Origin: Carboxylicivirga sediminis
Lineage (GTDB): Bacteria > Bacteroidota > Bacteroidia > Bacteroidales > Marinilabiliaceae
Assembly: GCF_018156225.1 (NCBI RefSeq)
Contig: NZ_JAGTAR010000033.1
Span: 1 to 60,684, forward strand
Reading direction: 5' to 3'
DNA length: 60,684 nt
In this document: positions 13,314 through 60,684 of the stretch, piece after piece
How the letters are laid out: the number at the start of each line of letters is the position of its first letter
How positions within the stretch are numbered: position 1 is the first letter of the stretch
The notes under the pieces: model-generated
Told to the model about the DNA's origin: nothing
Seen by the model: only the letters and a program-made list of their open reading frames with translations
Databases searched by the model: none
Translations under genes and position numbers: made by a program

Positions 13314-13317
13314 AGCT

Positions 13318-44703: not shown

Positions 44704-44811
44704 AAATCGGATAAATAGGCTAATATCAGCATTCTGGGCTTGGGTAAAAAAAACGACTGGTGACACAGTTTATTGAACAGACCCTGAACAGCCCCCGAAG
44801 GAATCCATTTT

Positions 44812-44956: not shown

Positions 44957-45002
44957 AAGACTGATTTGCAGCTTCAAATTGAATGTCTACGCCAATTTCC
45001 GA

Positions 45003-45086: not shown

Positions 45087-45100
45087 CTGACAGATCAGTG

Positions 45101-45349
45101 TTTCTCGACCTAAAGCATCGATTTCTTGACTTTCATACGCACTTTCTAGAACAGATCGGTGTTCTTCACATACAATATTGAATGATTGAGAAACAGTTCG
45201 ATGTTCATGACTTGTAGATGAGGTTTCTCGACTTGCAGCATCGGTTTCTCGACTTGCAGCATCGATTTCTTGACTTGCAGACGTGATTTCTTGGCTTACA
45301 GCATCGATTTCTTGACTAACAGATGAGATTTCTCGACTTACAACATCTC
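45101..45349. repeat. Tandem array B of 21-bp units
   Basis: Two units at 45101 and 45122, a degenerate middle (45143-45223), then six exact 21-bp units from 45224 to 45349. The core is TTTCTCGACTTGCAGCATCG plus one base. The sequence is unrelated to array A but has the same 21-bp period. The array lies precisely between the two REP-like copies. Confidence 0.85.
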
Positions 45350-45433
45350 AATTGCTGGCGCGGATTTACAATCCGTGCCTTTTATCTGGCGTAGCACAGA
45401 TTACAAATCTGCGCTAGCCATAGAATAAATTGA
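45349..45433. repeat. REP-like palindromic element, copy 2
   Basis: This is the better-preserved copy, with two perfect palindromes: CGGATTTACAATCCG (45361-45375) and CAGATTACAAATCTG (45397-45411). Each has 6-bp arms and a 3-nt centre, separated by a pyrimidine-rich spacer. The two halves are also imperfect inverted repeats of each other, giving a larger cruciform. It has the same orientation as copy 1 and shares its flanking bases out to AAATTGA. Confidence 0.8.
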
Positions 45434-45452
45434 TAAATAGGATTTGTGAAGG

Positions 45453-45491
45453 TCTTTAAACAAAACTCCCGATTGATAATCAACCGGGAGC
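45453..45491 (-). terminator. Terminator of the ATP-grasp/M20-like gene
   Basis: CTCCCG (45466-45471) pairs with CGGGAG (45485-45490), and the stem extends further as ATTGAT/ATCAAC with a mismatch. Read on the - strand it is followed by TTTTGTTT. It begins ten bases beyond the stop at 45500, a classic position for a Rho-independent terminator. Confidence 0.8.
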
Positions 45492-45499
45492 CTATTTCT

Positions 45500-47650
45500 T
45501 TACTTCGTATCCTTTAGCAACAGGGCCACCAATAAGGCACGTTCGATTAGGCTGTGCCGGATGATGCGCTCATTGTCTGATGGCAGGTATTCGCCCACTG
45601 GACCTAAACCATCAATAATGGGCATGTCTTTTTTGATGTGGCAGATATCTGCTGAGCTCCAGCGGTGTTCCTCTCCAATACGCACATCAATTTGCTTGGC
45701 CAGCTTACTTACTTTATTATACAGTTTTTTAGAAGTGTCAGATACGGACATGGCGGGACGTTTGAGCCCACCTTCAATCTTCACCTGATAGATTTTACTG
45801 CGTTTTTGGGTGGCCAATATCTTTTTAATCTTCTGTTCAATCTCGTCCAGCACTTCGGGCGAGTTATAGCGCACACTAATGCCGGCGGAGCCATAGGCAT
45901 ACTTCTTAAAAATGTTGCTCTTATACTGAATGTCAAATGGTGCAATGATGTTTTTATTATCGTTTTGCGATATATCACAAATAGCTGCCAGCGTTTTATT
46001 AAAATTCATGGCAGTGAGCGATACATTTTCGGGATTGTCCTTTTTCAGCATCTTTGTTTCGAGGCGGTACATGGCCGAACCCGAGCGCGACAGGATGAGG
46101 CCTCCTTTTTTTGAGGCGCCACTGAGTGAAATGACTGCTTTGGCCAACTCGGCTTTCTGCTGAATGATGGCTTTAGAGTAACGGCCATCAATGGATGAGT
46201 CGGTCACCAGCAGAATACCAATATTCAGTTTCTTCAGGTTGCGCGAGAACTTAAGTGCCTGAAGAGCGGATATTAAAATGGCCACACCACCTTTGCTCTC
46301 CCATACGCCGGTACCCTCGAGGTACTGCTCCTGCTCGTGGTAATTCTCGTGTTGTGCCAGTTTAATGCGGTTATCCAATGGTTGAATAATCAGGTAGTCG
46401 ACCTCCTGGTTAAATGAGTTGGAGAAATAAAGAATATTACCAACCTCCAGCTGCGGATATATTTCCTGGGTAAAACCCAACTGGCTTAACTCACTACTGA
46501 TTAGCCCCGAGCAGTAGTTAACCCCTTCTACATTCCTTACATAGGTGTCGGTATCCACCAGCTGCTGCAGTAACTTTTCGGTACGTTGCTGCCGTGTTTT
46601 AATAAAGGTGCGCATGCGCGAAGTCTGGGTCGTTCGCCCATTAGCCGGTTGGTTATCGGCTTGCGGCAAAGTATTGGTGAAATACCTGACCGATGCCACA
46701 TCCAACATCTTATTCACCAGCGACTCAAAATCGTAGCCTGCTACTTTAGCGGCAGTAGGATAGGAGCCTGTTTCGCCAAGGCTGGCCATGGAGTTTATCT
46801 CCAGCAGGTAGATGTTATCATCTTCGTCGAGGCGTATATCAACGCGCGAAAAATCCCTTAGGTTAAGTGATTTAAAGGCTTCAATACTCAGTTTCTGCAT
46901 TTTTTCAGCCAACTCATCCGAAATGTGAGCAGGACACACCTTCTTCTTGGGAGTGTGCTTTTTATCATCAACCGTTTGAATGGCATCGGGATCGCCTTCC
47001 AGGTCGATCTCCAACACCGGAAACGGCTCAACAGGCGAATTGCCGATTAAGCCGACGCAAAACTCACGTCCCCTGATGAATTGCTCCACCAGTGCCTGCT
47101 GACTAAATTCTGTTACAATAAAATGCACAGCTTCTCTAAGGTCATCCTGGTTGTATACCACCTTCAGGCCAAAGGACACACTTTCCATCTTAGGCTTCAC
47201 AATTACCGGAAACTTCACCGATGACATGTCTTCATCATGGTTGTTAAATACCCAGAAATCGGGTGTTGGCAGTCCGTTATTTTTCCAGATGATTTTAGTA
47301 AGCACTTTATCGAGAGCCAGTGCATGACCCGATGGGGAAGAGCCCACATAGGGCAAACCCAGCATCTCAAGCATGCTTGGGATGTGTGTATAGCGCGATT
47401 CGCCTTGTATGCCATAGGCCATATTGAATATCATACCCATCTGCTCACCCTGGTTAACGCGCGGCATAAAGTTTTCGAGGCGTTCAATAATCTGCTTATT
47501 GCCATCTAATACAGCCACGTTATGGCCGGCCTTCTCCAGACTCTCAGCGACTTTTTTAACGGTCTTTTCGTTGTAGAACTCTTTGTTCTGCATGCCAAAG
47601 GTGTTGATTACACCGCTGATGTCCTTATTGTATATCAGTGCTACTTTCAT
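45500..47650 (-). CDS. ATP-grasp ligase fused to a degenerate M20 peptidase-like domain
   Basis: This is a 716-residue protein. Residues 1-315 resemble D-Ala-D-Ala ligase: ALALDKVLTKIIWKNNGLPTP, FPVIVKPKMESVSFGLKVV, ALVEQFIRGREFCVGLIG and VDIRLDEDDNIYLLEINSMASLG with the metal-binding E-x-N. After a linker, residues 345-716 follow the M20 metallopeptidase plan (GTGVWESKGGVAILISAL; IDGLGPVGEYLPSDNERI). The zinc ligands look lost, with the HxD His replaced by Pro (QPLDN), the Glu pair by Ser-Ser (DSSIDG) and the late His by Leu. It is probably a peptide or amide ligase whose second domain binds rather than cleaves its substrate. The product is unknown. Confidence 0.8.
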   Translation of the reverse strand: MKVALIYNKDISGVINTFGMQNKEFYNEKTVKKVAESLEKAGHNVAVLDGNKQIIERLENFMPRVNQGEQMGMIFNMAYGIQGESRYTHIPSMLEMLGLPYVGSSPSGHALALDKVLTKIIWKNNGLPTPDFWVFNNHDEDMSSVKFPVIVKPKMESVSFGLKVVYNQDDLREAVHFIVTEFSQQALVEQFIRGREFCVGLIGNSPVEPFPVLEIDLEGDPDAIQTVDDKKHTPKKKVCPAHISDELAEKMQKLSIEAFKSLNLRDFSRVDIRLDEDDNIYLLEINSMASLGETGSYPTAAKVAGYDFESLVNKMLDVASVRYFTNTLPQADNQPANGRTTQTSRMRTFIKTRQQRTEKLLQQLVDTDTYVRNVEGVNYCSGLISSELSQLGFTQEIYPQLEVGNILYFSNSFNQEVDYLIIQPLDNRIKLAQHENYHEQEQYLEGTGVWESKGGVAILISALQALKFSRNLKKLNIGILLVTDSSIDGRYSKAIIQQKAELAKAVISLSGASKKGGLILSRSGSAMYRLETKMLKKDNPENVSLTAMNFNKTLAAICDISQNDNKNIIAPFDIQYKSNIFKKYAYGSAGISVRYNSPEVLDEIEQKIKKILATQKRSKIYQVKIEGGLKRPAMSVSDTSKKLYNKVSKLAKQIDVRIGEEHRWSSADICHIKKDMPIIDGLGPVGEYLPSDNERIIRHSLIERALLVALLLKDTK

Positions 47651-47751
47651 GTTTTAGTATAATTGTCTTCTGTATTTCTGTCAACTATCTTATTAGTGTT
47701 CAATTTATAATCTACTCCTAATTGATGTCAATGGTGCGCAGGTTACTGGGC

Positions 47752-48327
47752 TTAAATAATCTCACACATCTTGAGGAAATTTTTCACCATCAACATGCCT
47801 TCTGGTCCTGATACTTCGGGGTGCGACTGGAAACCATATATCGGTTTGGTTTTATGACGAATGATTTCGTTGCTGCAAGTATCGGATGTCGCCAGGCTTT
47901 CGAACGAGGCAGGCAGCTCCGATACATGAAAGGAGTGACGTTTCACCAGCGACACTTCTGTTTTAGACAGGCCGTCAAAAATAGGATCTTCTGGTTTGGT
48001 AATGGTAATCAGCTCCTTTTTGCCGTGGTATTCTGCCAGCTTCTTGATTCGTCCTCTGTAGCTAACTGCAATGATCTCATGGCCCAGACAGAAGCCCAGT
48101 ACAGGCACATCAAAATTCATTAATGCTACAAAATTAGATGTGAGGTTGAGTGGCTCCCAGGGATTGCCTTTGCCACCTGATAAGATAATGCCCTTTATCT
48201 GTGTTTTGGCAGATAAGGTGATGGGTTGATTATGGTCGAAAAACACGTAATCAAAATCCTGCTCCGAAAGAAACTGTCGTTTGAATTTCTTTATGAAGGC
48301 ACTTTGGTTGTCGATGATTAGCAGCAT
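47752..48327 (-). CDS. Class I glutamine amidotransferase domain protein
   Basis: This 191-residue stand-alone GATase1 domain has the oxyanion loop GIILSGGKGNPWEP, nucleophile Cys80 in GFCLGHE, and His169/Glu171 in GFQSHPEVSG, so the catalytic triad is complete. It is closest in look to the amidotransferase half of GMP synthetase. It should release ammonia from glutamine for a partner synthetase. The nearest candidates are the ATP-grasp protein 100 bp downstream or a separate GuaA synthetase subunit elsewhere. The neighbouring GMP reductase gene fits a purine connection, but this is only context. Confidence 0.85.
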   Translation of the reverse strand: MLLIIDNQSAFIKKFKRQFLSEQDFDYVFFDHNQPITLSAKTQIKGIILSGGKGNPWEPLNLTSNFVALMNFDVPVLGFCLGHEIIAVSYRGRIKKLAEYHGKKELITITKPEDPIFDGLSKTEVSLVKRHSFHVSELPASFESLATSDTCSNEIIRHKTKPIYGFQSHPEVSGPEGMLMVKNFLKMCEII

Positions 48328-48559
48328 ATTAAATCATTACTTATCACTAAATAGTAAACCATTTTGGCGCGATAATTCGCGTACCTAAAATACGGTAAAA
48401 AACTATACGATGCAGTCGCAGTATGAAAATATAATACAGGTGTTTACTGGCCTTTATTCAGTATTGCAACATCAATTAATGAGTTATCCATAAAATGCTA
48501 TGTTAGAAATATATGCGGTGGATGTAGATGAAGCGGAAGAGAGGGATCAGGACCTGACC

Positions 48560-48588
48560 AATAAAAAAAGCCGCACAAGGCGGCTTTT
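48560..48588 (-). terminator. Terminator of guaC
   Basis: A perfect 9-bp stem, AAAAGCCGC (48566-48574) with GCGGCTTTT (48580-48588), and a 5-nt loop. On the - strand it is followed by TTTTTTTAT. It lies 20 bp after the guaC stop codon. The gap from here to the next gene start (48327) is about 230 bp, and nothing else was recognised in it. Confidence 0.9.
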
Positions 48589-48608
48589 ATGTATAACAAA
48601 AATGTTTT

Positions 48609-49649
48609 TTACTTGGTATAAACACGGTTTTCCTGCTCGGCAACACGGATAAAAGTAGTACGCTTAGTTAGCTCTTTCAGCTGTGATGCGCCCACATAGG
48701 TACAGGTACTGCGCACACCTCCTAATATATCCTGAAGTGTGGCCTCAACCGGGCCTCTGTATTCTACTTCAACGGTTTTACCTTCGCTGGCACGGTATTC
48801 AGCAACACCCCCTGCATGCTTATCCATTGCTGTAGCTGAACTCATGCCATAAAACTGCTTGTATTTTTTGCCGTCGATATCAATCACCTGGCCGCCACTC
48901 TCATCGTGTCCGGCCAGCATACCACCCAGCATCACAAAGTCGGCTCCGGCACCAAAGGCCTTGGCCACATCGCCAGGTACTGCACAGCCTCCATCACTGA
49001 TGATCTGTCCGCCTAGGCCATGAGCCGCATCGGCACATTCAATAATGGCTGACAACTGAGGATAACCAACACCTGTTTTCACACGTGTGGTACAAACCGA
49101 ACCTGGTCCGATACCTACTTTTATAATATCAGCACCAGCCAGCAATAGCTCTTCCACCATTTCGCCGGTGACCACGTTACCTGCCATAATTACTTTATCA
49201 GGAAAGAGGGCACGTGCTTGCTTAACAAATCCTACAAAATGCTCGGAGTAGCCATTGGCCACATCAATACAAATAAACTTCAGCTTTGGGTTAGCCTTAA
49301 AGATGCTAACAACCTTATCTAAATCGTTGGCACCGGTACCTGTGCTCACTGCAATGTAGTTCTCAATACCTTCAGGAGCATCAGCCAGAAACTGGTTCCA
49401 TTGTTCCAGGGTATAGTGTTTATGAATAGCTGTGAAAAGCTCATTCTCGGCCAGTTTAACGGCCATCTCAAAGGTCCCCACTGTGTCCATGTTAGCAGCC
49501 ATAATTGGCACGCCTGTCCATTCAATGCTGGTGTGCATAAATTTAAAAGTGCGCTGCAGGTTTACCTGCGAACGGCTTTTTAGCGTTGAACGCTTAGGTC
49601 TGAACATGACGTCTTTGAATCCCAACTTAATGTCGTATTCTACTCTCAT
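48609..49649 (-). CDS. guaC: GMP reductase
   Basis: This 346-residue protein is collinear with E. coli GuaC, from [25 protein letters not shown] at the start to [25 protein letters not shown] at the end. [21 protein letters not shown] holds the catalytic Cys (about 185), and [31 protein letters not shown] the phosphate-binding loop. It reduces GMP to IMP with NADPH for purine salvage. IMP dehydrogenase is ruled out by the absence of CBS domains and the GuaC-specific N-terminus. It is a single gene with its own terminator. Confidence 0.96.
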
Positions 49650-49807
49650 CTTACTAATTCCTTTTTTTGATTACAGACAAAGATACATGAATATTCTCAA
49701 TAAAAGCAATGGCGCTTTTAACGAAGAAAAATAAAATGCGAATAAGTTCGAACCGAGAATCAGAAAGTGTTGATTTGTGAAGTTTTAAATGGTTGTGAAG
49801 AAGAGAT

Positions 49808-50008
49808 TTATGACTCTATTTCTTTAAGTGTTTTTTCTACTTCTTCTTCTGTTTTGTGCAGTTTGTCCTTACAGCTTTTTATAAGTGCACTCACCCGTTT
49901 AACCTTCGCCGACAGGTCATCCACATCCAGTTCTTCGTTTTCAATCTGTTGCAGTATGTCTTCAATTTCACTAACGGCCTCGTTGTATGTGAGCTTCTTT
50001 TTTGTCAT
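49808..50008 (-). CDS. xseB: Exodeoxyribonuclease VII small subunit
   Basis: This 66-residue acidic helical protein has LTYNEAVSEIEDILQQIENEELDVDDLSAKVKRVSALIKSC in outline, the standard XseB pattern (YEEAxxxLExIxxxLE...LDELxxxxxxG). It binds XseA to form the single-strand exonuclease used in mismatch and double-strand repair. It lies 5 bp after a histidine kinase gene that separates it from xseA, and the three are probably one transcript. Confidence 0.92.
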   Translation of the reverse strand: MTKKKLTYNEAVSEIEDILQQIENEELDVDDLSAKVKRVSALIKSCKDKLHKTEEEVEKTLKEIES

Positions 50009-50013
50009 TGCTA

Positions 50014-52257
50014 TTAGTTATTTTTAATCTGCAGTAAAGGTAGTGTAAAATAAAATGTGCTGCCTTTTTCCAGTTCACTTTCTGCCCAAATGGCCCCTTT
50101 GTTTATCTCAACAAACTCTTTACACAACACCAGGCCCAAACCGGTGCCTTTTTCATTCAGTGTGCCTTTGGTGCTGAATGTGGAATCAACCATAAAAAGC
50201 TTCTCCAGATTTTCCTGTCTGATACCAACGCCTGAGTCGGCTACCGACACTTCTATCATATCATTTTTAGCACTGGCAGCGACATATATAACACTGCCTA
50301 TGCGAGAGAATTTTATAGCGTTGCTAATCAGGTTTCTTAGTATAGTATTGTAGAGGTTTTCGTCGGCCCAGGCTACCAGGTTACGCTCTATTCTGGGACT
50401 GATAACGATATCTTTTTCTTCAGCATTTAAACGAAGCAGCGATACAATATTATGTGTCTGAATGGATATATCAAGCTGTGTGGGTTTGTACTCAGTGGTG
50501 CCCAACTGTGTGCGCGACCATTGCAAAAGGTTCTCTACCAGCCCCAGCAGACGCTTGGTGGAGTTATGAATAATCTGGGAGTACTCAACCACCTCTTTTG
50601 TGTTTTTCGACTCAGCATTGAGCGTCAGCATTTCGGCGAAGCCCATCAGTGAGCTAAAAGGACTTTTCAGGTCATGAGCAATAATGGAGAAGAACTTGTC
50701 TTTTGTGGCATTCAACTGCTGAAGTTCGTTGTTCTTTTCCTTCAGTAAACGCTCAGTTTTACGCCGGCTGCGGAAGCTTAAAAACAAAACCACCACCACC
50801 ATTAATAAAAAGCCTGTTATTATCAGGTAGGTTGTCCGGCCAGTTCGCACGGTTGCCAGGCTGGCAGATTTGTTGAGATTATCCTGTTCGAGTTTCGATA
50901 TTTGCTCCTCCTTATTTAAGAGTTTATAGACGGCTTCCATGCGGGCACTACTCAGCATGGCCTGCTCATCGGTTATGGCGTCTTTAAGTTCGGCATATTT
51001 CGTTTTGTAATCTAATGCATCTTTATAGTTGGCTTGCTGGCTGTGCCATGCCGACATACTATTGTAACAATCAGCCAACAGCGCTTTTTCATCCAACTCT
51101 TTGGCAAGTTTTGTGGCTTTCGTCAGATAGTCACTGGCCTGCTGATAGTGTTTATTGGTTAAAAGGGTTTGCCCCAGGTGTAAATACGTTTCGGCCTTCA
51201 ACGAAGGATCGTTAAAGGTAAGCATCAGTTTAAGTGCTTTCTCAAAATAGGAGATGGCTTTGCTGTATTGTTCTCCATTTTGGTGGGCACGCCCAATGTT
51301 AACATACGATACAGCAATTTTCGAACTGTCACCCTCTTGTATCAGTATGTTCAATGAGGTTTGATAGTTTTCAATAGCTTGGAGAATATTGCCCAGTTCG
51401 AGGTGTACCTCCCCCAAATTATTGTAACAGCTGCTTATACCGTCTTTATCATCAAGCTGACTGTATATCGCCAAGGCCTCCTGGTAGTTGCGAATAGCCG
51501 CTTCGTTATTGTTTAAAGCACCGTTGATGTTGCCAATGTTATTGAGCAGCACTGCACGACTTTTGGCATCGCTATCCAGCTGGTTTAACTCCAAGGCTCT
51601 TTCCAGACAAATCAGTGCTTCATTGTATTGGGCTAAGGTGTTTAGTACCACCCCTTTGTTGGTGAGTCCTTTCCTGATTAATACTGTGTTATCAATTTTC
51701 TCTCCCACCGTAAGCACCATGTCAAAGTACTCAAGCGCCTGGGCATAATTGCGCAGATACCAATACATGGCGCCCAGGCTGTTGTAGGTGTTACCTAACT
51801 TTTCGAGGTTATTAGTCGATGTAAAAATATCTTTTGCCCGGTTAAAGTGTTCAATGGCCAACTCATTCTGGTTGTTGGCATTCTCAATCCATCCCAGGTA
51901 TTCTTCTGTTATACCAACGTTATTTTTATCGGTGCTTGCAGCTTTGTAGGTGAGGGCATTATTGAGGTACTCCCTGGCTATATTGTATTGCTTGTGGTTA
52001 AAGAGTGCCAGGCCTGCTTTATGATAGACGTCAAATTTAACGGATGGGTTTGGCTCATTGGCAATGACAGATACTGATTGTTGGCACAGTGAAATGACTT
52101 CATCTTCTGCCTGAGCTTTTTCGGCTTGTTCAATATACTGAAAAGCTGTTTCTTTATTCTGCTGGCTATGGGCTGTAAATGAGCAGTTAAGGAATAAAAG
52201 TATGCAGCCTGTAATGGTGTAAAGTGACTTAAATAGTAGCTTGGTGGTCATCGACAT
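50014..52257 (-). CDS. TPR-repeat sensor histidine kinase
   Basis: This 747-residue protein has a signal peptide (about 1-31), about ten periplasmic TPR motifs (about 40-420, e.g. NTYNSLGAMYWYLRNYAQALEYFD), and a membrane helix (YLIITGFLLMVVVVLFLSF near 485). A short coiled coil leads to HisKA with phospho-His in FFSIIAHDLKSPFSSLMGF near 525, then HATPase_c with NLISNAIKFS, DSGVGI and GTGLGLVLCKEFVEIN. This TPR-HK layout is common in Bacteroidota and may sense peptides or partner proteins. No response regulator is adjacent. Its position between xseA and xseB is unusual, with gaps of 52 and 5 bp. Confidence 0.93.
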   Translation of the reverse strand: MSMTTKLLFKSLYTITGCILLFLNCSFTAHSQQNKETAFQYIEQAEKAQAEDEVISLCQQSVSVIANEPNPSVKFDVYHKAGLALFNHKQYNIAREYLNNALTYKAASTDKNNVGITEEYLGWIENANNQNELAIEHFNRAKDIFTSTNNLEKLGNTYNSLGAMYWYLRNYAQALEYFDMVLTVGEKIDNTVLIRKGLTNKGVVLNTLAQYNEALICLERALELNQLDSDAKSRAVLLNNIGNINGALNNNEAAIRNYQEALAIYSQLDDKDGISSCYNNLGEVHLELGNILQAIENYQTSLNILIQEGDSSKIAVSYVNIGRAHQNGEQYSKAISYFEKALKLMLTFNDPSLKAETYLHLGQTLLTNKHYQQASDYLTKATKLAKELDEKALLADCYNSMSAWHSQQANYKDALDYKTKYAELKDAITDEQAMLSSARMEAVYKLLNKEEQISKLEQDNLNKSASLATVRTGRTTYLIITGFLLMVVVVLFLSFRSRRKTERLLKEKNNELQQLNATKDKFFSIIAHDLKSPFSSLMGFAEMLTLNAESKNTKEVVEYSQIIHNSTKRLLGLVENLLQWSRTQLGTTEYKPTQLDISIQTHNIVSLLRLNAEEKDIVISPRIERNLVAWADENLYNTILRNLISNAIKFSRIGSVIYVAASAKNDMIEVSVADSGVGIRQENLEKLFMVDSTFSTKGTLNEKGTGLGLVLCKEFVEINKGAIWAESELEKGSTFYFTLPLLQIKNN

Positions 52258-52309
52258 GTGTTAAGGCAATAAAACAGCCTACAAAATATAAAAAGCGTAT
52301 AATAAAACG

Positions 52310-53695
52310 TTATTTTTTTTGAGTTATTTTTTCGATGCGACTGATGATTTTACCTTCGTGCAGTTGTGTTAATAGCTCGTCGCCAACGTTTAAGCTTTCC
52401 AGTTGCTTCACTAGTTCGTTACCCCGGTATGTTAGCGAATAACCTCTTTTAAGTATTTCATAAGGATCGCATAGTTCAAGAGTCCTTTCAGCCAGTTTAA
52501 GCCTTTGTTGCTGATTTTTGAAATAGGCATTTGTTTCAAGCTTTAAGCGTGTTGATTGAAACGCCAGTTTCTGATGACTGCCCCGCAGCTGTTTTTTGGT
52601 CAGGTAATGAGCCGATTCCTTTACATGCGAAAAGAAGGAGACCTGCTTGTCGAAGTAGCTCTTGACGGCAAATTCGAGGCGGTGAGCTGCATCTATCTGA
52701 AATTGCTTGCTGGCACTGATGGCTGTGTTAACAACCGGCTGAAAACGCTGTGCTGCCAACTCCAGTCGGTGCAACTCGTTAACGAGTAGTTGGGAGGTTT
52801 CGGCTACAAAATGCTCTTTTAGATCAGACAGGTAGGCATCAAATTGGGTAATCCGATCGATAATGAACTCGGCCACTGCTGTTGGTGTTTTCAGGCGTGT
52901 GTGTGCCACCATATCGGCAACAGATTCATCCCGTTCGTGGCCAATACCCGTTAAAACCGGCAAAGGAAACTGTGCAATATTAAGCGCCAGCATATAACTG
53001 TCGAAGCACATCAGATCGGAAGAGGAGCCACCACCACGTATGATAACTACCGCATCAAACGCGTGCTCATGCTCATAGATACGCTCAAGAGCTGCAATGA
53101 TTGATTGCTCGGCTTCATCACCCTGCATAATGGCCGGAAATAATTTGTGGTATATCTTATAGCCTTCCGGGTTATTGCTCAGCTGGTTGATGAAATCTTC
53201 GTAGCCGGCAGCGGTAGGCGACGAGATAACGGCCAGTACCTGTGGAACTTCTTCCAGGTCAACCTCCTTGTTCATATCCATCACACCATCTTCCTGAAGC
53301 TGTTGAATGACTTCCAGTTTCCGACGGGCAATATCACCCAGTGTGAATGTCGGGTCAATATCCTTAATGTTTAAACTGTATCCATACACCTCCTGAAATT
53401 CAATACTCACCTTCAGAAGCACCTTTAAACCTGCACTTAGCGTTTGCCTGGTGGTGGTTTCAAAGTATGGTTTCAGCATGCGATAGGTGAAGGCCCAGAT
53501 AGTGGCCCGGGCTTTCGCTTTGACCTGGTCCGAGTCGGTGTCTTTCTCAATGAGCTCCAGGTAGCAATGGCCGCTCCGGACTGTTCGTATTTCGCTGATT
53601 TCGGCTATTACCCAATAGGTTGAAGGAAAACTCTCTTTCAGCTGGTCCTTTATATTGGTGTTTAATTCAAATAAACTCAGTTGTTCGCGGGCCAT
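52310..53695 (-). CDS. xseA: Exodeoxyribonuclease VII large subunit
   Basis: This 461-residue protein has an N-terminal OB fold (STYWVIAEISEIRTVRSGHCYLELIE) and a catalytic Exonuc_VII_L domain with AVISSPTAAGYEDFINQL, VVIIRGGGSSSDLMCFD, LTGIGHERDESVADMVAHTRLKTPTAVAEF. A long coiled coil (about 270-400) and a terminal GYSLTYRGN segment follow. It degrades single-stranded DNA from both ends with XseB. It starts the - strand run xseA, TPR kinase, xseB, and lies 4 bp from the subtilase gene end. Confidence 0.95.
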   Translation of the reverse strand: MAREQLSLFELNTNIKDQLKESFPSTYWVIAEISEIRTVRSGHCYLELIEKDTDSDQVKAKARATIWAFTYRMLKPYFETTTRQTLSAGLKVLLKVSIEFQEVYGYSLNIKDIDPTFTLGDIARRKLEVIQQLQEDGVMDMNKEVDLEEVPQVLAVISSPTAAGYEDFINQLSNNPEGYKIYHKLFPAIMQGDEAEQSIIAALERIYEHEHAFDAVVIIRGGGSSSDLMCFDSYMLALNIAQFPLPVLTGIGHERDESVADMVAHTRLKTPTAVAEFIIDRITQFDAYLSDLKEHFVAETSQLLVNELHRLELAAQRFQPVVNTAISASKQFQIDAAHRLEFAVKSYFDKQVSFFSHVKESAHYLTKKQLRGSHQKLAFQSTRLKLETNAYFKNQQQRLKLAERTLELCDPYEILKRGYSLTYRGNELVKQLESLNVGDELLTQLHEGKIISRIEKITQKK

Positions 53696-53699
53696 TGTA

Positions 53700-55307
53700 T
53701 TAGCGGCTTTTTATCACTTTAACATGTTGCTTTGAGCGATTGTTTTCAATAATGACAATATAAATACCATTGGCAAATGCTGCCACTTCGTTAATAACAA
53801 TGTTCTTTTGATGCCTGTGCTCTTTGCGGTATTTAATATTGCCCAGTATATCAACAATTGTTACTGTAACGTTGGGTCCCGATGAGTTGAATAGCGTCAG
53901 GCGGCTGTTAAACGGATTGGGGCCAACCTTCCATTGGGTATTATAAGCTGGTGCACTTTCAATATCAACGCTATAGGCCTGGTTAAAATCAGGTATGCCA
54001 TATCCCAACTCGTTATTAGGCGTGTTATGCAGATGTGCACTACTCATTATCAGCTGGCGTATTTCTTCAGCTGTCTTATCGGGCATTGCCTGCCACAAAC
54101 AGGCGGCCAGACCGCTAATAACAGGAGCTGAAAAAGAGGTGCCATTCCCTTTACTGATGCCACCACTTGTGTTTTGTACCGCTACCGCTCCTCCTAATGC
54201 ACTTATTTCAGGTTTCACACGGCCATCACTCGACGGGCCAAAGGAAGAGAAAGAGGTTCGGGTGCTGTCGGCATTGACTGCACCAATGGCTAAGCAATGT
54301 TTGGCATCGGCCGGGGCGCCAATATGGAGCCAGCTGTTATTGCCTTCGTTGCCGGCGCTGGTAACCAGTAACATGCCTTTTGATGAAGCCATGTCGGATG
54401 CCCGGGATATTCTGCTTGTAGCATTCATGTCAGCATACGAATAACTCTGAGAAGGCGCATCAAACTCGTAATAACCCAATGATGTGTTGATGATATCAAC
54501 CCCGGCACTGTCTGCAAACTCGGCCGCACATATCCAGTAGTCCGGTTCAATGGGATGTTCCGAATGAACGTCTTCGGTGCGCAGCAGCCAGAAGGAGGCA
54601 TCGGTGGCAGTTCCCATGTATTGCTGGTTGAGCTTACCCCCAATAATCGATAGCACGTTCATGCCATGGTAATGCTCATTAAAAATATTGGAAGCCGGAT
54701 TAACAAAGTCTTTGGTGCCCATCACCTGACCATTATCCCAAAGGTGTTTGGTGAGAGGCAGTTCATTGGCCTTATAGAAACCTGCATCAATAACAGCGAT
54801 GAGCATGCCTGCTCCCTTTAATCCATTGTTGTGCAGATGATGGCCGTTGGCTGTACTAACCTGTAACCACGATTCGCCGTAGGGTGAGTCCAGCGCACTT
54901 TTGAGCAATGGCACAAGAGGCTCCAGTTTTTTGAAAGTGCCAGTGCTAATGACTGGTTTATTCAGTTCAACTGTATTGATAAAAGGCACACGCTCCAAGG
55001 TATCCATCAGGGCCTTATTGTTGCTGAAAACAATGGCGCCATTCATCCATTTGCTGGTGTGTTTAACATCAATGCCATATTTTATCAGGCTATCAATATA
55101 AGCCGGATTCACCGGCAAATCACTCTGGTCAACAGCGATGTTCTGTTTGGCTCGTCGCTGAATAGCTCTTATCGATAAGAACTCTTCAGGTCTGTCCAAT
55201 GAGTAAGGGGAGTTGTTTTTGTCAGTAAACGTTATGAAATAGCCATCCTGTGCCATACTTAGCGTAAGGCATAACCATAAAAGTAGTATGGATGAAAGGT
55301 ATTTCAT
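53700..55307 (-). CDS. Type IX-secreted subtilisin-like serine protease
   Basis: This 535-residue protein has a signal peptide (1-19) and an inhibitor-like propeptide with FLSIRAIQRRAKQNIAVDQSDLPV (about 44-70). The S8 catalytic domain has Asp in LIAVIDAGF, His in EHYHGMNVLSIIGG and Ser in GNGTSFSAPVISGLAACLW. The C-terminal 75 residues (WKVGPNPFNSRLTLFN, then ANGIYIVIIENN and a basic end) form a Por/type IX sorting domain. The protease is thus exported to the surface or medium, where it degrades proteins or processes partners. It is followed by xseA after 4 bp and preceded by a MORN-protein gene by 7 bp. Confidence 0.93.
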   Translation of the reverse strand: MKYLSSILLLWLCLTLSMAQDGYFITFTDKNNSPYSLDRPEEFLSIRAIQRRAKQNIAVDQSDLPVNPAYIDSLIKYGIDVKHTSKWMNGAIVFSNNKALMDTLERVPFINTVELNKPVISTGTFKKLEPLVPLLKSALDSPYGESWLQVSTANGHHLHNNGLKGAGMLIAVIDAGFYKANELPLTKHLWDNGQVMGTKDFVNPASNIFNEHYHGMNVLSIIGGKLNQQYMGTATDASFWLLRTEDVHSEHPIEPDYWICAAEFADSAGVDIINTSLGYYEFDAPSQSYSYADMNATSRISRASDMASSKGMLLVTSAGNEGNNSWLHIGAPADAKHCLAIGAVNADSTRTSFSSFGPSSDGRVKPEISALGGAVAVQNTSGGISKGNGTSFSAPVISGLAACLWQAMPDKTAEEIRQLIMSSAHLHNTPNNELGYGIPDFNQAYSVDIESAPAYNTQWKVGPNPFNSRLTLFNSSGPNVTVTIVDILGNIKYRKEHRHQKNIVINEVAAFANGIYIVIIENNRSKQHVKVIKSR

Positions 55308-55314
55308 AGGCCTG

Positions 55315-56169
55315 CTATCTCATAAATTGTTCGGGGTTGTTACCCATCTTTTCCGGGTCCTTCAAGGTGGCTCGCTTCTTTTCAAACTCGGCTTGTTCCT
55401 CGGCTCTTCTTTTTTCCAGCACTTCGGGGTTCATTAGTTGTCCGTTGCTGTATTTCAACTGGTAATTGATTTTTCCATCGGCATGATAGAATGTCCATTC
55501 ACCATCTTCTTTGTCGTGCTTGTAGGTGGCATCTATCTCCAGCTGACCATCCAGAAAATAATATAAATATTTACCATGCAACTCATCATTTACATATTGT
55601 GCCTTCAGCATGGGCGCTCCATTCTTAAAGAATTTTAGCCATTCACCTTCTTTCTTGCCGTTTTGCCAGTTAATGATTTCAGCAACAGCCCCGTCCTGGT
55701 AAAAAACTTTATACTGGCCATGCGATTGCCCATTAACAAATTCTTCAGTAGCCAGCACAGCCTCTTTTGCAGCGTAATAAGTCCAGGTACCAATTTTGTC
55801 TTTGCCCTGGTAATTACCTTTCGATGTAAGGTTGCCCTCTTCGTTAAATAAGCGCGCCTTTCCATATTCACCGTTCTCATCGTAGATAATCTCTAAACTC
55901 ATTTTACCATTGGGGTAATAACGCGTATAGCTTCCTACCGGTTTATTATTCTTAAAAGTGGCCTTGTATAGCACGGTGCCATCGGTATAGCGTTTTTCCC
56001 AGGGGCCTTGCTTCATGCCATTGGCATCCGTCTGGTTGTAATGTGCCGGAATAGGGGTGATGTTTTTCTTTTTAGTCGGAATTTTATTGCCAAACACATC
56101 GGTTTGACCGGTGGCTGTAGCTGCTGCTACCATTAAAGCTATCGAAAGAAGAAAGAACGTCAGTCTCAT
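55315..56169 (-). CDS. Secreted MORN-repeat protein
   Basis: This 284-residue protein has a signal peptide (MRLTFFLLSIALMVAAATATG) and seven or so MORN_2-type repeats of about 23 residues (GPWEKRYTDGTVLYKATFKNNKPVG; KIGTWTYYAAKEAVLATEEFVNGQSHG; GEWTFYHADGKINYQLKYSNGQ). The C-terminus is charged (EKRRAEEQAEFEKKRATLKD). Bacterial MORN_2 proteins are commonly labelled toxin-antitoxin YwqK-like, but there is no evidence of that here. It may be a periplasmic or surface scaffold. It lies 7 bp before the subtilase gene, so they may be co-expressed. Confidence 0.85.
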   Translation of the reverse strand: MRLTFFLLSIALMVAAATATGQTDVFGNKIPTKKKNITPIPAHYNQTDANGMKQGPWEKRYTDGTVLYKATFKNNKPVGSYTRYYPNGKMSLEIIYDENGEYGKARLFNEEGNLTSKGNYQGKDKIGTWTYYAAKEAVLATEEFVNGQSHGQYKVFYQDGAVAEIINWQNGKKEGEWLKFFKNGAPMLKAQYVNDELHGKYLYYFLDGQLEIDATYKHDKEDGEWTFYHADGKINYQLKYSNGQLMNPEVLEKRRAEEQAEFEKKRATLKDPEKMGNNPEQFMR

Positions 56170-56376
56170 GTTAAATTACTTTTATTAATGAAACAATCCT
56201 GAGTGAAAATACTCTTTAGTTGTTACTCAGATTTGAGAATCAGGTTTCAAAAATATATAAAAAAAGCAGAGCTGATTATTTACCGATTGACAATTGCATT
56301 TCGATTTCCTAATGTCTCAACTCTTTTTGCTGTAAACAAGTTTTGTGAAACGCTTGCCAGGCAATGGTTTTTACGC

Positions 56377-56520
56377 TTATGAAACAGGTAATTGTATGAG
56401 TTGACCAATCAGAAAAAACAGGATAGTGGCAAAACCAATAATGAAAAGAACAGCTGCAGTACTATTCTCAAGCCACTTTTTTCTCTTCGTTGTGTTCTTT
56501 ATTTTTTTCACAGTGTTCAT
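56377..56520 (-). CDS. Small single-helix membrane protein overlapping rdhC-like gene
   Basis: This is an ATG-started ORF of 47 residues whose first 53 bp overlap the 3' end of the RdhC-like gene in another frame. A basic head (KKIKNTTKRKKW) precedes one strongly hydrophobic helix (STAAVLFIIGFATILFFLIG) and a short tail. The positive-inside layout and continuation 91 bp beyond the upstream stop argue for a real gene. Overlaps like this are common in the window. It could be an extra subunit or anchor of the dehalogenase membrane complex. No homologue is recognised, and it may be spurious. Confidence 0.5.
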   Translation of the reverse strand: MNTVKKIKNTTKRKKWLENSTAAVLFIIGFATILFFLIGQLIQLPVS

Positions 56521-57649
56521 TCTTCTTGCTTTTGAATGTTATTATTGAGCGCCGCTGTTTTTGAATCCATTTAAAGGTTGTGCCAACCGGGCATAGGTAA
56601 TGACAGAAAAAATCGGAGATAAAAAGTGAACCTACTAATGCCGCTGGCAGAATATACCATTGTACACCATATCCTTCAAGAGAAAATAGCATGGCAAAGG
56701 GTTCGTAACCAGCCAGTGTTGGGTTGGATGAGAGCAAAATCATCAGCACCGAGAACCATAACAGAAATCCAGGTATCTTGCGAATAATGCGTGTGGCATT
56801 CATGGCAAATTTCAGGTTAATGCCTGACACTTTATTTAATAACATTTGTGTGGCATGAAATGGACATAGAGCATGGCAATACACATTTTTCCCCCAGATT
56901 ACAATACTGACCAATGAGCCTCCCATCAATACCCACCATACCAGGTGGTGATGTATATCTGGTAAATACCCCAAAAGAATTCGTCCGAAGTGAGACAAGG
57001 AAATGGAGGCATTGAATATGATTCCCATGAAGATCATTGACAATCCCAGGGTGATATATCGAAGTTGTTTCTTCCGCAAATAAGTAGCTATCACTCCCAA
57101 TATAAATATGGCCAGCACAATACCTTCTTTGGGTGTCAGACGCCACTGTTTTTTAATGGCGGGTGCCTCTTGATTCATGGCTGTTTCGAGAATGGCATAT
57201 GAAGCATCACGGGTGGCCTGCGCAATTGCTACAGAACTTATTGTTGCACCGGATGCCGCATTCACATCTTGATGCACCTGAAAGGTATCGGCCAGAGCTT
57301 TCTGCTTGTATTGTCGGAAATAATATTGAGCCCGCAGCTTTTCAATGAACGAAAAGGTTTCCACATGGCGCAGCAAGTCCATGTTTTGGATGTGTCCTGC
57401 TGTATCCGCAAGAACAGCTACCTCCAAAGGACCGCCATATCCCTGTGAACGACCACAGGAGAGATACCCGATTAAGGTATCTTCCCTGGTGGCTGTATAT
57501 ACTTCTCCCATTAAACCAATGCGCTTCAATTCCAGCCCTTCTGATATTTCCAGTGATTGCAGCCCATTGTTTTTTGAATTATTGAACTGGCCGATGGCAA
57601 AAGCAGCTATTAAACTGCCATATGCTAACCAGCGAACAACTTGTTTCAT
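56468..57649 (-). CDS. rdhC: RdhC/NosR-like FMN-binding membrane protein
   Basis: This 393-residue protein has an N-terminal helix (RWLAYGSLIAAFAIGQF) and a periplasmic FMN-binding domain with the flavinylation motif NAASGATISS, in which Thr136 is the expected covalent FMN site. About five membrane helices follow, with two cytoplasmic-side Cys motifs CHALCP (Cys258, Cys262) and CHYLCP (Cys349, Cys353). This is the plan of RdhC and NosR/NirI proteins. RdhC has been proposed to pass electrons from quinol to the dehalogenase or to aid its maturation. There is no C-terminal ferredoxin domain. It lies 38 bp after the RdhB-like gene in the same orientation. ApbE, which attaches the FMN, is not in the window. 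Confidence 0.82.
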   Translation of the reverse strand: MKQVVRWLAYGSLIAAFAIGQFNNSKNNGLQSLEISEGLELKRIGLMGEVYTATREDTLIGYLSCGRSQGYGGPLEVAVLADTAGHIQNMDLLRHVETFSFIEKLRAQYYFRQYKQKALADTFQVHQDVNAASGATISSVAIAQATRDASYAILETAMNQEAPAIKKQWRLTPKEGIVLAIFILGVIATYLRKKQLRYITLGLSMIFMGIIFNASISLSHFGRILLGYLPDIHHHLVWWVLMGGSLVSIVIWGKNVYCHALCPFHATQMLLNKVSGINLKFAMNATRIIRKIPGFLLWFSVLMILLSSNPTLAGYEPFAMLFSLEGYGVQWYILPAALVGSLFISDFFCHYLCPVGTTFKWIQKQRRSIITFKSKKNEHCEKNKEHNEEKKVA

Positions 57650-57687
57650 TGATATACAGGATTCTGTGGTAGTGATTATAAGATGGA

Positions 57688-57969
57688 TTAACTCTTTTTT
57701 AAAGCCATTCTTAATCCTAATGTCAATAGAATTAAAGCAGGCATGCCAAATACCACGATGCCCATACTGGCGGCACGTGGTTCTCCTTCAAGCACAGAGC
57801 TAACAGACCAGGCTATGCAAAACAACAAGAGGAATGCTCCCAGTCCAATGATGCTCCCTTTTTTCCAATCCAGGCGGCTTTTCATATTCAAGCTGATGAG
57901 ACCCAGCATTGCCAGGCAGGATATGAATCCCAGGATGAAAAACAGTAGTTCAATTCCAGAAAATATCAT
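57688..57969 (-). CDS. rdhB: RdhB-like reductive dehalogenase membrane anchor
   Basis: This 93-residue protein has three hydrophobic helices (LLFFILGFISCLAMLGLISL; IIGLGAFLLLFCIAWSV; GIVVFGMPALILLTLGLRMAL). The loop between helices 2 and 3 reads SSVLEGEPRAASMG, with paired Glu residues and a following MG, as in PceB-type anchors. RdhB proteins hold the Tat-exported RdhA on the outer face of the inner membrane. It follows the rdhA-like gene by 43 bp and precedes the RdhC-like gene by 38 bp. Size, topology and position all fit. The family is short and variable, so the name is an inference from context plus the loop. Confidence 0.8.
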   Translation of the reverse strand: MIFSGIELLFFILGFISCLAMLGLISLNMKSRLDWKKGSIIGLGAFLLLFCIAWSVSSVLEGEPRAASMGIVVFGMPALILLTLGLRMALKKS

Positions 57970-58012
57970 AGTAATATGTTTTTATAAATGTTATACATCC
58001 AAATTATTAACC

Positions 58013-59395
58013 CTAGTAGCCGTTGTATTCACGGTCTTTATCAGCCCAGAATTTCTTCACTGCTTTTTCGTCGAAGGTATCACCATAGCCAAATACAATG
58101 TCCATTTCGCGCATGAAGCTGTGAACCGGCCCTGGCATTAATGCCGAAACTTTATCGACCAGCTTATGGTGCCAGAAATCGGGTTTATTATAGGGGCAGG
58201 AAGTAATGCAGGAGGCACAGGAATTATTGCCTTCACACCAGTATTCAAAGCAGGTTTTGGCATTAATGTACCACTTCTCCACACCAGGATTATTGAACCA
58301 GGTTTCGCCACCATGAGTTGGTTTCATTGTGGGCTCCACATTTTTGGGGATGGATTTGGAAGGGCAGGCATCAGCGCAGCGTTGGCAGCGCTTACAAAAT
58401 TCACGCACTCCAAATTTAACCGGCTTATCATACTCCACAAAGTCCATATCGGTATATACCTTGGCAATGCGGAAGCGAGGCCCGTATTTGTAGTTGATGA
58501 GTAAGCCGTTGCGGCCGCCTTCTCCCAATCCGGCAGCAATGCCATATGGCACACTCATGCCCATGTCGTTTCCGGTTGCCACCGCTTTATAACCAAGGTT
58601 TTTAAGAAATACAGACAGCTGAAATGCCGTAACAGCCATTTGAGAATAGCCTTCGCCAATGGCTCCTTCAACCGTATAAGATGGTGCGGTTGCCATGTTT
58701 TCATAATCCATCTCCACACCAATTACAATCACTGATTTGGGCTTAAACGGAAACTCTTCCCAACCAATCTCCTGCCCATTCAATGCCACAAAATGTTTAT
58801 CGTAGTCCCACATTTTATTGCGTGGCGCAATACCAACTAAATCGGCTTTAAAGTGGCGCGCTGCCCGCTTAATGACTGCAGAGGCCTCCGCTTTAGTTGT
58901 AAACTCATGCCGTTCGTGGTTGACATAGTTTAAATCCAGAAAGTTCGTTCGCTGTTCAGGTAAATTTTGTTGCCAGCTATACCAGCCAGTATTAGGCATA
59001 CCAAATTTAGAACCTGGCGTTGCAGCGTGCTCAATAGCCCACGAGCCATGGTGCAGGGCCCAATCGATACGTGTGAATCCCGGGCGTGATTCATCTGTTT
59101 CGAATCGCTCAAAGGTGCGGGCCTTGGCAGCTAATGCAGGATCAATGCCGCCCACTGCACGGCTGAATACAGTATTGCGTTGTGAAAATCGTTTATAGTC
59201 GGGTGATATCTTTACCGGGAAGTCCTCCAAAGGTTTAATAACCGCTTTCTTGGTTTCTTTATCGAGCACTTCACCGGCTGCTTTATGTGGTATAGCAGCT
59301 ATGCCTGCAGCGCCCAAAACAGCTCCGGCTGAACCTATTTTCAGGAACTCTCTTCTACCAAAGGCCGCTTTTGTTTTATCCTTTTCTGTTGCCAT
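58013..59395 (-). CDS. rdhA: Reductive dehalogenase catalytic subunit RdhA
   Basis: This 460-residue protein has a twin-arginine signal (GRREFLKIG, Arg14-Arg15, then an Ala/Gly-rich helix). Its two ferredoxin-type clusters are CKRCQRCADACP (Cys334, 337, 340, 344) and CASCITSCP (Cys393, 396, 400, with Cys382 or Cys387 as a possible fourth ligand). Between lie the corrinoid-enzyme blocks IGEGYSQMAVTAFQ (Tyr250, the likely proton-donor position), ATGNDMGM, and GLGEGGRNGLLINYKYGPRFRI. This is the RdhA pattern. The enzyme removes halide from an organohalide with cob(I)alamin chemistry, outside the cytoplasm. Epoxyqueuosine reductase (QueG), a relative, lacks the Tat signal. The halogenated substrate cannot be predicted. 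It starts an operon with rdhB- and rdhC-like genes. Confidence 0.9.
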   Translation of the reverse strand: MATEKDKTKAAFGRREFLKIGSAGAVLGAAGIAAIPHKAAGEVLDKETKKAVIKPLEDFPVKISPDYKRFSQRNTVFSRAVGGIDPALAAKARTFERFETDESRPGFTRIDWALHHGSWAIEHAATPGSKFGMPNTGWYSWQQNLPEQRTNFLDLNYVNHERHEFTTKAEASAVIKRAARHFKADLVGIAPRNKMWDYDKHFVALNGQEIGWEEFPFKPKSVIVIGVEMDYENMATAPSYTVEGAIGEGYSQMAVTAFQLSVFLKNLGYKAVATGNDMGMSVPYGIAAGLGEGGRNGLLINYKYGPRFRIAKVYTDMDFVEYDKPVKFGVREFCKRCQRCADACPSKSIPKNVEPTMKPTHGGETWFNNPGVEKWYINAKTCFEYWCEGNNSCASCITSCPYNKPDFWHHKLVDKVSALMPGPVHSFMREMDIVFGYGDTFDEKAVKKFWADKDREYNGY

Positions 59396-59610
59396 AATTT
59401 TTAAGATTATAGTGAGCTAAATTCAATGATTACAACAAAGAAAGATTTCATCCGTATGGCAGTCGTTCCAAATCCTGATTCCGGCTGAATAGGACGTTCT
59501 TATCAGCGTTCTGAAACATGATTTGGTACTCTTACAGCCCTGAATGACAGGGTGAACGGAAAGAGTTTATAATAAAACTAAATAGGGGAGTGTTCTATCA
59601 AGCACTGGTA
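59396..59610 (-). promoter_or_regulatory. Probable promoter region of the rdh operon
   Basis: These 215 non-coding bases lie between the AraC-type regulator gene and rdhA, both on the - strand. They contain a short inverted repeat CCCTG-AATGA-CAGGG (59538-59552), which could be a weak terminator of the regulator gene or an operator. No TAnnTTTG-type box was found, and the promoter position is not assigned. Confidence 0.4.
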
Positions 59611-60684
59611 TTAGCTTGTAGCTTTTCGGTATTCTGAGGGTGTTTTGCCAGTGAACTTTTTAAATGCAGTATTGAATGTGGTTTTGGATTTAAATCCCGC
59701 TTCATAACCAAGCGCCAAAACGGTGTAATGGGCTTTTGATGCATCAGCACATAAGCGCTTATATTCTTCTATTCGGTAGTTATTGATATAATCATTGAAG
59801 TTTTGCCCAATTACATTGTTCACCACTTCTGAAATAATGCGCGCCGTTAATTTGACCTGTTCAGCCAGCTCCTGAACGCTCAGGTCGGGATTCAGGTAAG
59901 GACGGGCCAGTTCCATGTGTTTATTCAGTTTACTCATGTAATAGAGCGCTTCCTCTTTTTCAAGTGAAGTTCCCTCTTTCTTCTTTTTACCAGACAGGTT
60001 GAAAAGAGAAGTATCATAGTGCAACACAACCGGGTTAGAGATGAGTGAATAGGTAAATATCAGGCCAACTGCCGAGTATATAAGAACATTTCCAAATTCA
60101 AAATACTTCTGAAAAGAGGCATGATACAACCCCAGGTTTACTTCCAGTAAACGTGTAAGACCATGCACAATAAGCAGAATCGAAATCAGGCGGATATATC
60201 TAAAATGTGCAGACCATACAGGGTGTTCTTTTGCCAGTTCCATAAAGCCCTTCTTTTTGAGCCGGGTATACACAATAAAAGAATACACCACAAATTGTAT
60301 GCTTACAATTTCAGTTCCAATGAGCTGGTAATACTCAAAATAGCGATCCATCCAGGGATTGTGCCCAAAAGGCGTCTTATAAAAGATAAGCAGTGGAATG
60401 ACCAGCAATAGACTCAGGCCAAGAATGTATAGATGACTGAAAAACTTTAGGCTAAAATCGATCCGGCGCTTGGCCAGTTGCATAAAATACATGTAAAGGA
60501 AAGGGCCAAACAGCAGTTCATTAGGTACCCGTATAGCAAATAAGTAGGGGTAGGACTCGAACCATCCTATATTTTTAAAAAGTGTCAAAGAGTTAAATAT
60601 AGTGAGGTTAACCATTAAAATGGCAAATATCAGATTGGGCAGATTCCGGTGTTCCTTCTTGGCCAGAATCAGAATTAACCCAAT
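59611..60684 (-). CDS. Membrane-bound AraC-family transcriptional regulator (5' partial)
   Basis: The frame stays open through the right edge. The 23 codons upstream of the Met at 60615 continue a hydrophobic segment (GLILILAKKEHRN...LIFAIL), so the true start is outside the window. About 230 residues of membrane helices are followed by a charged linker (GKKKKEGTSLEKEEALYYM). A C-terminal AraC double helix-turn-helix follows (LSVQELAEQVKLTARIISEVVN; YTVLALGYEAGFKSKTTFNTAFKKFTGKTPSEYRK). This 7TM-AraC layout is common in Bacteroidota. It lies upstream of rdhA in the same direction and is a candidate regulator of the operon. Confidence 0.88.
   Translation of the reverse strand: MGLILILAKKEHRNLPNLIFAILMVNLTIFNSLTLFKNIGWFESYPYLFAIRVPNELLFGPFLYMYFMQLAKRRIDFSLKFFSHLYILGLSLLLVIPLLIFYKTPFGHNPWMDRYFEYYQLIGTEIVSIQFVVYSFIVYTRLKKKGFMELAKEHPVWSAHFRYIRLISILLIVHGLTRLLEVNLGLYHASFQKYFEFGNVLIYSAVGLIFTYSLISNPVVLHYDTSLFNLSGKKKKEGTSLEKEEALYYMSKLNKHMELARPYLNPDLSVQELAEQVKLTARIISEVVNNVIGQNFNDYINNYRIEEYKRLCADASKAHYTVLALGYEAGFKSKTTFNTAFKKFTGKTPSEYRKATS

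Follow-up and report, generated by a model that had tools for sequence, protein, structure and literature searches.

The DNA analysed here is a stretch of 60,684 nucleotides (nt) from Carboxylicivirga sediminis (NZ_JAGTAR010000033.1), hereafter the window, which is one entire contig (C60); the genome comprises 5.81 Mb in 133 contigs. We found that four minus-strand genes at its far end form a predicted organohalide-respiration operon. The first, rdhA (59395-58013, 460 residues), encodes a putative reductive dehalogenase (RDase) catalytic subunit exported by twin-arginine translocation (Tat), and is followed after 43 nt by rdhB (57969-57688, 93 residues), encoding a three-helix membrane subunit with the loop E61-G-E63. 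After a further 38 nt comes rdhC (57649-56468, 393 residues), for a membrane flavoprotein with an SGATIS motif and two CX3CP motifs, and its end overlaps by 53 nt a small open reading frame (ORF) for a single-span membrane protein of 47 residues (56520-56377). Upstream of rdhA lies a gene for an AraC-type regulator (60684-59611, minus strand), whose start is lost at the contig end, and the intergenic region between them (59396-59610) is presumed from its position alone to be the control region. All four genes of this tight set, including the overlapping membrane ORF, had been described in an initial annotation made from the letters alone, and each was recovered.

The catalytic subunit was compared with family models and known structures. 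RdhA scored 207.3 bits against TIGR02486, far beyond chance and above the curated cut-off of 160.35, whereas it reached 38.1 bits against the QueG model TIGR00276 and failed the equivalog cut-off of 200; the database search proposed in the initial annotation thus came out on the side of the dehalogenases. The best chain in the PDB was 8q4h_A, the tetrachloroethene (PCE) dehalogenase of Desulfitobacterium hafniense (phmmer E 3.9e-69, profile E 9.7e-115). An AlphaFold (AF2) model of RdhA had a mean predicted local distance difference test score (pLDDT) of 86.8, and Foldseek returned 8q4h_A as its top match (E 1.8e-34, about 29% identity by fold alignment), ahead of NpRdhA (about 1e-18) and the best QueG (2.6e-7), so that the structural check also favoured PceA by far. 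In this model, which holds no cofactor, the polar residues at the corrinoid edge are partly kept.

Motif analysis bore out the earlier description of RdhA as a Tat-exported protein with two ferredoxin-type cysteine clusters. The twin-arginine motif GRREFLK at 13-19 and a hydrophobic stretch at 17-35, recognised by motif and hydropathy, point to export; in an alignment of the window protein with 49 relatives, the two arginines were kept in all 50 rows, as were the eight cluster cysteines (C334/337/340/344 and C382/393/396/400). Y250, N276, R309, K312 and H410 were likewise invariant, while K404 and D432 were kept in 43 rows each and Y437 in 46. The annotation had sought a cobalamin cavity around Tyr250, Asn276 and Arg295. 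In S. multivorans PceA, N272 is presumably a catalytic residue. HMMER alignments showed that Y246, N272 and R305 of that enzyme (numbering of PMC10624902) correspond to Y250, N276 and R309, and thus the first two cavity residues stand, whereas Arg295 corresponds to R291 and has to be replaced by Arg309. Moreover, K404, H410, D432 and Y437 correspond to K489, H495, D515 and Y520 of the menaquinone pocket in D. hafniense PceA. Five of the six corrinoid-edge residues named for that enzyme were mapped (N68 was left out; chain offset 48), of which K399 and N454 are kept as K312 and N369.

At E 0.001 RdhB had no match among the models of Pfam and NCBIfam, and a profile built from five RdhBs found the PceB chain 8q4h_C (E 1.1e-6). 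Hydropathy showed three hydrophobic stretches, and E61 and E63 sit at identical residue numbers in PceB, all of which agrees with the three-helix anchor and Glu-x-Glu loop proposed before. Among 24 separate RdhBs of Bacteroidota the loop reads ExE in 19 and ExV in five, indicating that the second glutamate is not universal. In the D. hafniense structure, menaquinone lies between PceA and PceB, with PceC absent (PMC10624902). As a separate observation, RdhB makes up the N-terminal part of an in-frame fusion with RdhA at L037:8657-10360 (the same contig as L073; locus and contig labels are ours), with a twin-arginine motif midway along the fused protein; when the L073 fusion was aligned to separate RdhBs, the rows were misplaced, and this alignment was not used for folding. 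An RdhA-RdhB fusion at L094 was dropped because its frame crosses a run of unknown bases, and its RdhA part was retained in the 115-row tree described below.

RdhC contains FMN_bind and Fer4_5 domains above the Pfam cut-offs. Its motifs SGATIS at 133, CHALCP at 258 and CHYLCP at 349 are those expected of the RdhC/NosR-like flavoprotein announced in the initial annotation, and with an rdhA in the genome they agree with the definition in PMC5928378 ([S/T]G[A/S]TX[S/T] and two CX3CP). The AF2 model (pLDDT 90.2) was most similar to RnfG (E 9.9e-5) and NqrC, proteins with a flavin mononucleotide (FMN) domain, and no NosR or other polytopic relative stood among the best 50 of 275 fold matches. Hydropathy gave three stretches, to which the model adds further long helices; the published definition has about six, with the FMN domain outside (PMC5928378).

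Organohalide respiration in Bacteroidota is already published on similar genomic and transcript evidence, so that the rarity assumed in the annotation is outdated. Hybrid RDases were listed in Marinilabiliales isolates (Atashgahi 2019, PMC6797604), 'Bacteriodetes' were counted among the holders of RdhC (Buttet 2018, PMC5928378), and 112 Bacteroidota genomes with RDase genes were reported together with expression in a PCE-dechlorinating culture (PMC12090745). Marinifilum and Ancylomarina have been named candidate organohalide respirers, and the RDase of Marinifilaceae bin.4, which comes with an RdhB and a Btr-like regulator, was induced 1.65e3-fold by 2,6-dibromophenol (PMC12908670). We found that the bin.4 primers fit a Marinifilum/Labilibacter/Carboxylicivirga clade about 50% identical to the window RdhA, best at L070 (1 + 4 mismatches in 40, with a 131 bp product as expected). 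The RdhA at L071 of Desulfoluna spongiiphila AA1 (contig FMUX01000007) is 49% identical over 420 columns and, from the contig and locus-tag numbering, is probably RdhA1, which is induced by 1,4-dibromobenzene (PMC7031245). Because these relatives are induced by bromoaromatics, our best guess by analogy is that the substrates are brominated aromatics.

Based on the above results, we propose that the window carries a canonical menaquinol-dependent rdhABC organohalide-respiration operon of a Marinilabiliaceae-like Bacteroidota, a reading to which we give a probability of roughly 0.85 and under which we infer the catalysis, substrate, quinone use, regulation and RdhC contact. What the sequences themselves show is the homology, the architecture, the kept residues, the conserved small gene and, elsewhere in the genome, genes for Tat, menaquinone, flavin transfer and the upper part of the corrinoid pathway. 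RdhA would fold with a corrinoid and two 4Fe-4S clusters before export by the Tat system, and RdhB would hold it on the outer face of the inner membrane. Menaquinol would be oxidised at the RdhA-RdhB interface, the electrons passing through the two clusters to the cobalt, where the halide is removed, with Tyr250 and Arg309 acting as in PceA; the protons may leave through E61/E63 of RdhB and H410, D432 and Y437 of RdhA. RdhC, with its predicted covalent FMN and two CX3CP motifs, would serve as an auxiliary redox or maturation partner, the 47-residue protein as its single-helix companion, and the AraC-type protein would turn the operon on when substrate is present. Several observations weigh against this proposal. 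In RdhA, the quinone-pocket R499 of D. hafniense PceA is replaced by K415, and the corrinoid-edge residues H395, H461 and S479 by F308, Y376 and A394. The role of RdhC is unsettled, PceC being outside the purified complex and about 50-fold scarcer than PceA (PMC8905343). As for the substrate, the bin.4 primers mismatch the window rdhA at 9 + 7 positions of the homologous site, which makes the induced enzyme a cousin of the window enzyme, and RDase sequence is no predictor of substrate according to PMC6797604.

The distribution of the operon bears on whether it serves respiration. A scan of genome contigs gave 79 RDase loci. The nearest RdhAs are those of Marinilabiliaceae bacterium JC017 (88%) and of the metagenome-assembled genome (MAG) Marinilabiliaceae MAG16 (86% across residues 1-268, its frame being broken), and RdhAs of about 44-52% identity occur in Marinifilum, Labilibacter, Puteibacter, Labilibaculum, Ancylomarina, Carboxylicivirga and several Flavobacteriaceae and Fulvivirga MAGs. 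Some RDase was found at 1e-20 in 17 of 71 genomes of the family, and a close RdhA (E <1e-100) in six, the own genome included, indicating that RdhA is a patchy, accessory trait; only two further family genomes reach 85-89%; they belong to different genera and are probably JC017 and MAG16 seen a second time.

The own QueG served as the root of a 115-row tree, in which RdhA fell among RdhAs that mostly adjoin an rdhB, apart from the hybrid clade and not within QueG, as the proposed phylogenetic check had asked (quick method with long branches flagged; L073, being on the contig of L037, and rows under 300 residues were dropped). A careful 57-row tree made RdhA sister to JC017 (100/100), with weak forks to other groups (80/49). 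The trees neither establish nor exclude that the RdhAs of Bacteroidota arose once, since the careful tree requires two changes and one change suffices in 13% of 200 bootstrap trees (27-row group including L053 of Ignavibacteriota; the order-mates L037 and L038, placed elsewhere in the tree, were treated as outsiders, and L039 is absent from the tree). Other arrangements were seen among these loci. Two tandem rdhA genes precede one rdhB-rdhC at L044, L045, L047 and L048, in MAGs of Flavobacteriaceae and Fulvivirga, which are usually regarded as aerobes. At L038, near-identical ORFs (4711-6058 and 12423-13789), by eye like a reverse transcriptase/maturase, flank a TetR-rdhABC set, and this pair suggests a mobile unit. 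The rdhA frame is broken in two MAGs (L043:1452-2285 plus L122; L058:5992-7497 plus 7967-9145); at L058 an in-frame stop splits both rdhA and rdhC, through assembly error or decay.

We considered whether the enzyme is instead an exported, membrane-bound one for detoxification or electron disposal, with neither energy-conserving respiration nor a growth benefit, and regard this as unlikely, though the strongest of the alternatives. The presence in six of 71 genomes is what an accessory trait would give, relatives include facultative or fermentative Bacteroidota, and RDH-like scores in the genome come from one rdhABC operon and one hybrid RDase only. However, a mere detoxifier would need neither the quinone-pocket residues, most of which are kept, nor the RdhB glutamates, and among 24 named loci of Bacteroidota or Ignavibacteriota (L042-L061, L064, L067, L068 and L070, with isolates of Marinifilum, Labilibacter, Puteibacter, Labilibaculum and Ancylomarina) rdhB was found at 22 and rdhC at 21 on the stretch covered. 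These counts favour the respiratory operon.

A second alternative is that menaquinol electrons reach RdhA through RdhC, not RdhB, and that the small protein belongs to this electron bridge. The motifs for covalent FMN and CX3CP would suit such a role: among 56 RdhCs, the FMN motif as defined is present in 49, two CX3CP motifs in 54 and both in 47, and the model resembles RnfG and NqrC. Moreover, five deltaproteobacterial MAG loci encode an RdhC with an entire N-terminal RdhB-like domain and its Glu loop, in addition to a separate rdhB (L075:7196-9028, L077:4179-5681, L083:7358-9082, L088:1976-3532 and L118:5864-7417). However, PceA2B2 binds menaquinone without the scarce PceC, and at 19 of 84 rdhA loci the searches found an rdhB and no rdhC, including 12 with at least 3 kb beyond every rdhB (one of these, L094, contains the run of unknown bases). 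We therefore consider the bridge improbable and keep RdhAB as the putative menaquinol:organohalide oxidoreductase with RdhC as an auxiliary, because the PceAB structure holds menaquinone without PceC and PceC is scarce. Since such fusions often mark partners, we propose that RdhC and the small protein lie in or near the RdhA-RdhB complex. In addition, the RdhC tails at L064 and L069 carry an extra C-terminal hydrophobic helix and no separate small ORF follows; by eye this helix resembles the small protein, while the small-ORF profile gave 5.2 bits only on the L069 tail and the L064 tail was not among its 75 best rows. The long tail at L068 was not counted, its rdhC being frame-broken.

The 47-residue ORF is short, overlaps rdhC and matched no model in Pfam or NCBIfam, so that it might be a chance open frame and no gene. 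To score its occurrence, we used strict criteria (an ATG, 28-50 residues, one hydrophobic stretch and a start between 60 nt before and 100 nt after the end of rdhC). Of 25 Bacteroidota-type rdhC genes, the window included, 22 are followed by such an ORF, against one of 125 controls, which were the longest non-overlapping stop-to-stop frames of at least 200 residues and may include some that are not genes. At loci of other phyla the strict scan found it in 10 of 30 (five more rdhC genes lay too close to a contig end and were uncounted), a point for the chance view; looser criteria gave 23 of 25 Bacteroidota-type and 23 of 29 other loci, with controls at 15 of 123 and 29 of 297. The strict hit at L037 bears no resemblance to the family, and L058 was missed only since its rdhC frame is split, its small ORF being recovered by a profile search. 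The signal of selection is weak between the window copy and its two nearest homologues (ratios of nonsynonymous to synonymous differences, pN/pS, of 0.57 and 0.69), but over seven pairs sharing no row the pooled pN was 0.21 versus a pS of 0.66. Furthermore, a profile of 20 Bacteroidota copies, run against 21,249 stop-to-stop ORFs of the loci, gave 15 untrained matches at E <=2, and 14 of them follow rdhC (13 overlapping it or within 100 nt, and L038 at 361 nt). The matches span Bacteroidota, Pseudomonadota and deltaproteobacterial lines. The chance frame is thus very improbable, and the ORF is a conserved gene following rdhC. A frameshift fusion to RdhC was rejected as a general rule because in the Marinifilum loci the ORF starts at an ATG of its own, which lies between 7 nt ahead of the rdhC end and 27 nt beyond it.

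A literature search turned up no description of this protein (subscription papers were mostly outside its reach), and the gene is apparently previously undescribed. We think the chances about even that rdhABC systems of Gram-negatives widely share this protein as a conserved and so far unrecognised component, and that together with RdhC it forms a membrane module docking on RdhA-RdhB, as the RdhCs with the extra helix (two loci) and those with the RdhB-like domain (five loci) suggest. If true, RdhC would physically belong to the dehalogenase complex, possibly in a transient way, whereas the present picture has PceA2B2 only. We see a negligible chance that RdhA resembles QueG in function or is another cobalamin enzyme that does not dehalogenate: the cobalamin fold is common to both and TIGR00276 gives 38 bits, but this is far under the cut-off of 200, the genome has its own separate QueG on C56, a Tat signal, RdhB and RdhC accompany RdhA, and in the fold search PceA leads by 27 orders of magnitude in E. 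The family models, own QueG, QueG-rooted tree and predicted fold together support the annotation's view of a probably respiratory enzyme, neither QueG nor cytoplasmic and catabolic.

The AraC-type protein matched HTH_18 (1e-16), and its N-terminal part has five hydrophobic stretches. Homologues lie near rdhA at 17 of 27 other Bacteroidota-type loci examined, of which 14 are on the same strand and at most 400 nt upstream (distances to stop-to-stop frames); the exceptions are a fragment at L043, an opposite orientation at L051 and a distance of 1.3 kb at L067. None was found at L037, L038, L044-L048, L050, L052 or L053, and L050 begins just before rdhA. The araC-rdhA intergenic region shows little conservation with JC017, and neither aligning the sequence with JC017 nor scanning for promoters revealed a control element ahead of rdhA beyond chance, with 10 sigma-70-type matches in 55900-59700 versus 9.4 in shuffles. 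Downstream of the operon lie genes for a MORN-repeat protein and a subtilase with a type IX secretion system (T9SS) sorting domain, and the operon GC content (39-46%) is unremarkable against 38-49% across 44000-60684.

The genome also carries TatC, MenD and an ApbE flavin transferase that could flavinylate RdhC. A corrinoid cluster passed the curated cut-offs for the upper-pathway proteins CobA, CbiL, CbiH, CbiE-CbiT, CbiF, CbiD and CbiM; CbiC, CbiG and CbiJ domains and a chelatase were below the cut-offs, yet were the best matches. This cluster (L127, G000:C111:29000-48900) has fused CbiH-C, CbiE-T, CbiG-F and CbiJ-D genes and a cobalt transporter. The second RDase of the genome, on C40 (L002:1444-2805; G000:C40, about 109.2-109.9 kb), is of the hybrid N-terminal-helix type, with 140.7 bits under the RDH cut-off, and neither a Tat motif nor an rdhB-like ORF was found within its 3.6 kb stretch.

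What is fresh here is the conserved small membrane gene, on which the literature search was made, and the fusions linking RdhC to RdhB; together they give a handle on RdhC function. Evidence is growing that culturable marine Bacteroidota may respire organobromines of natural origin, and the window contributes a genome that has an upper corrinoid pathway of its own. Homologous operons in named isolates (Marinifilum, Labilibacter, Puteibacter and Labilibaculum) make organobromine respiration directly testable.

Among known systems, hybrid RDases have membrane helices fused to RdhA, no Tat signal and no rdhB, and form a separate clade (PMC6797604). The Tat motif, the rdhB and the clade in the tree rule out the window RdhA as such a hybrid with transmembrane helices. 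The catabolic NpRdhA type has no Tat signal, about 700 residues, an NAD(P)H-linked part and no anchor. The window RdhA, with 460 residues and a Tat motif, is ruled out as a cytoplasmic catabolic enzyme of this type, although both have a corrinoid and two 4Fe-4S clusters (predicted for the window); the matched region of 4ras begins at its residue 355. NpRdhA itself is cytoplasmic and NADPH-dependent (PMC10624902). In the RdhA1 cluster of Desulfoluna spongiiphila, rdhA, rdhB and rdhC stand together as in the window, and a small ORF follows rdhC in our scan of L071, its probable locus; this organism debrominates aromatics and, unlike the window, has a Sigma-54-dependent regulator and is a sulfate reducer (PMC7031245). 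The pceABCT operon and PceA2B2 complex of D. hafniense TCE1 (8q4h; PMC10624902) have in common with the window the gene order A-B-C, a Tat-exported RdhA, a three-helix RdhB with E61/E63, the catalytic Tyr and Arg, the Lys/His/Asp/Tyr of the quinone pocket and the FMN and CX3CP motifs of RdhC. In contrast, the window has an AraC-type regulator and no adjoining trigger-factor gene, several corrinoid-edge residues are changed, the host is a Bacteroidota, and an extra single-span gene follows rdhC.

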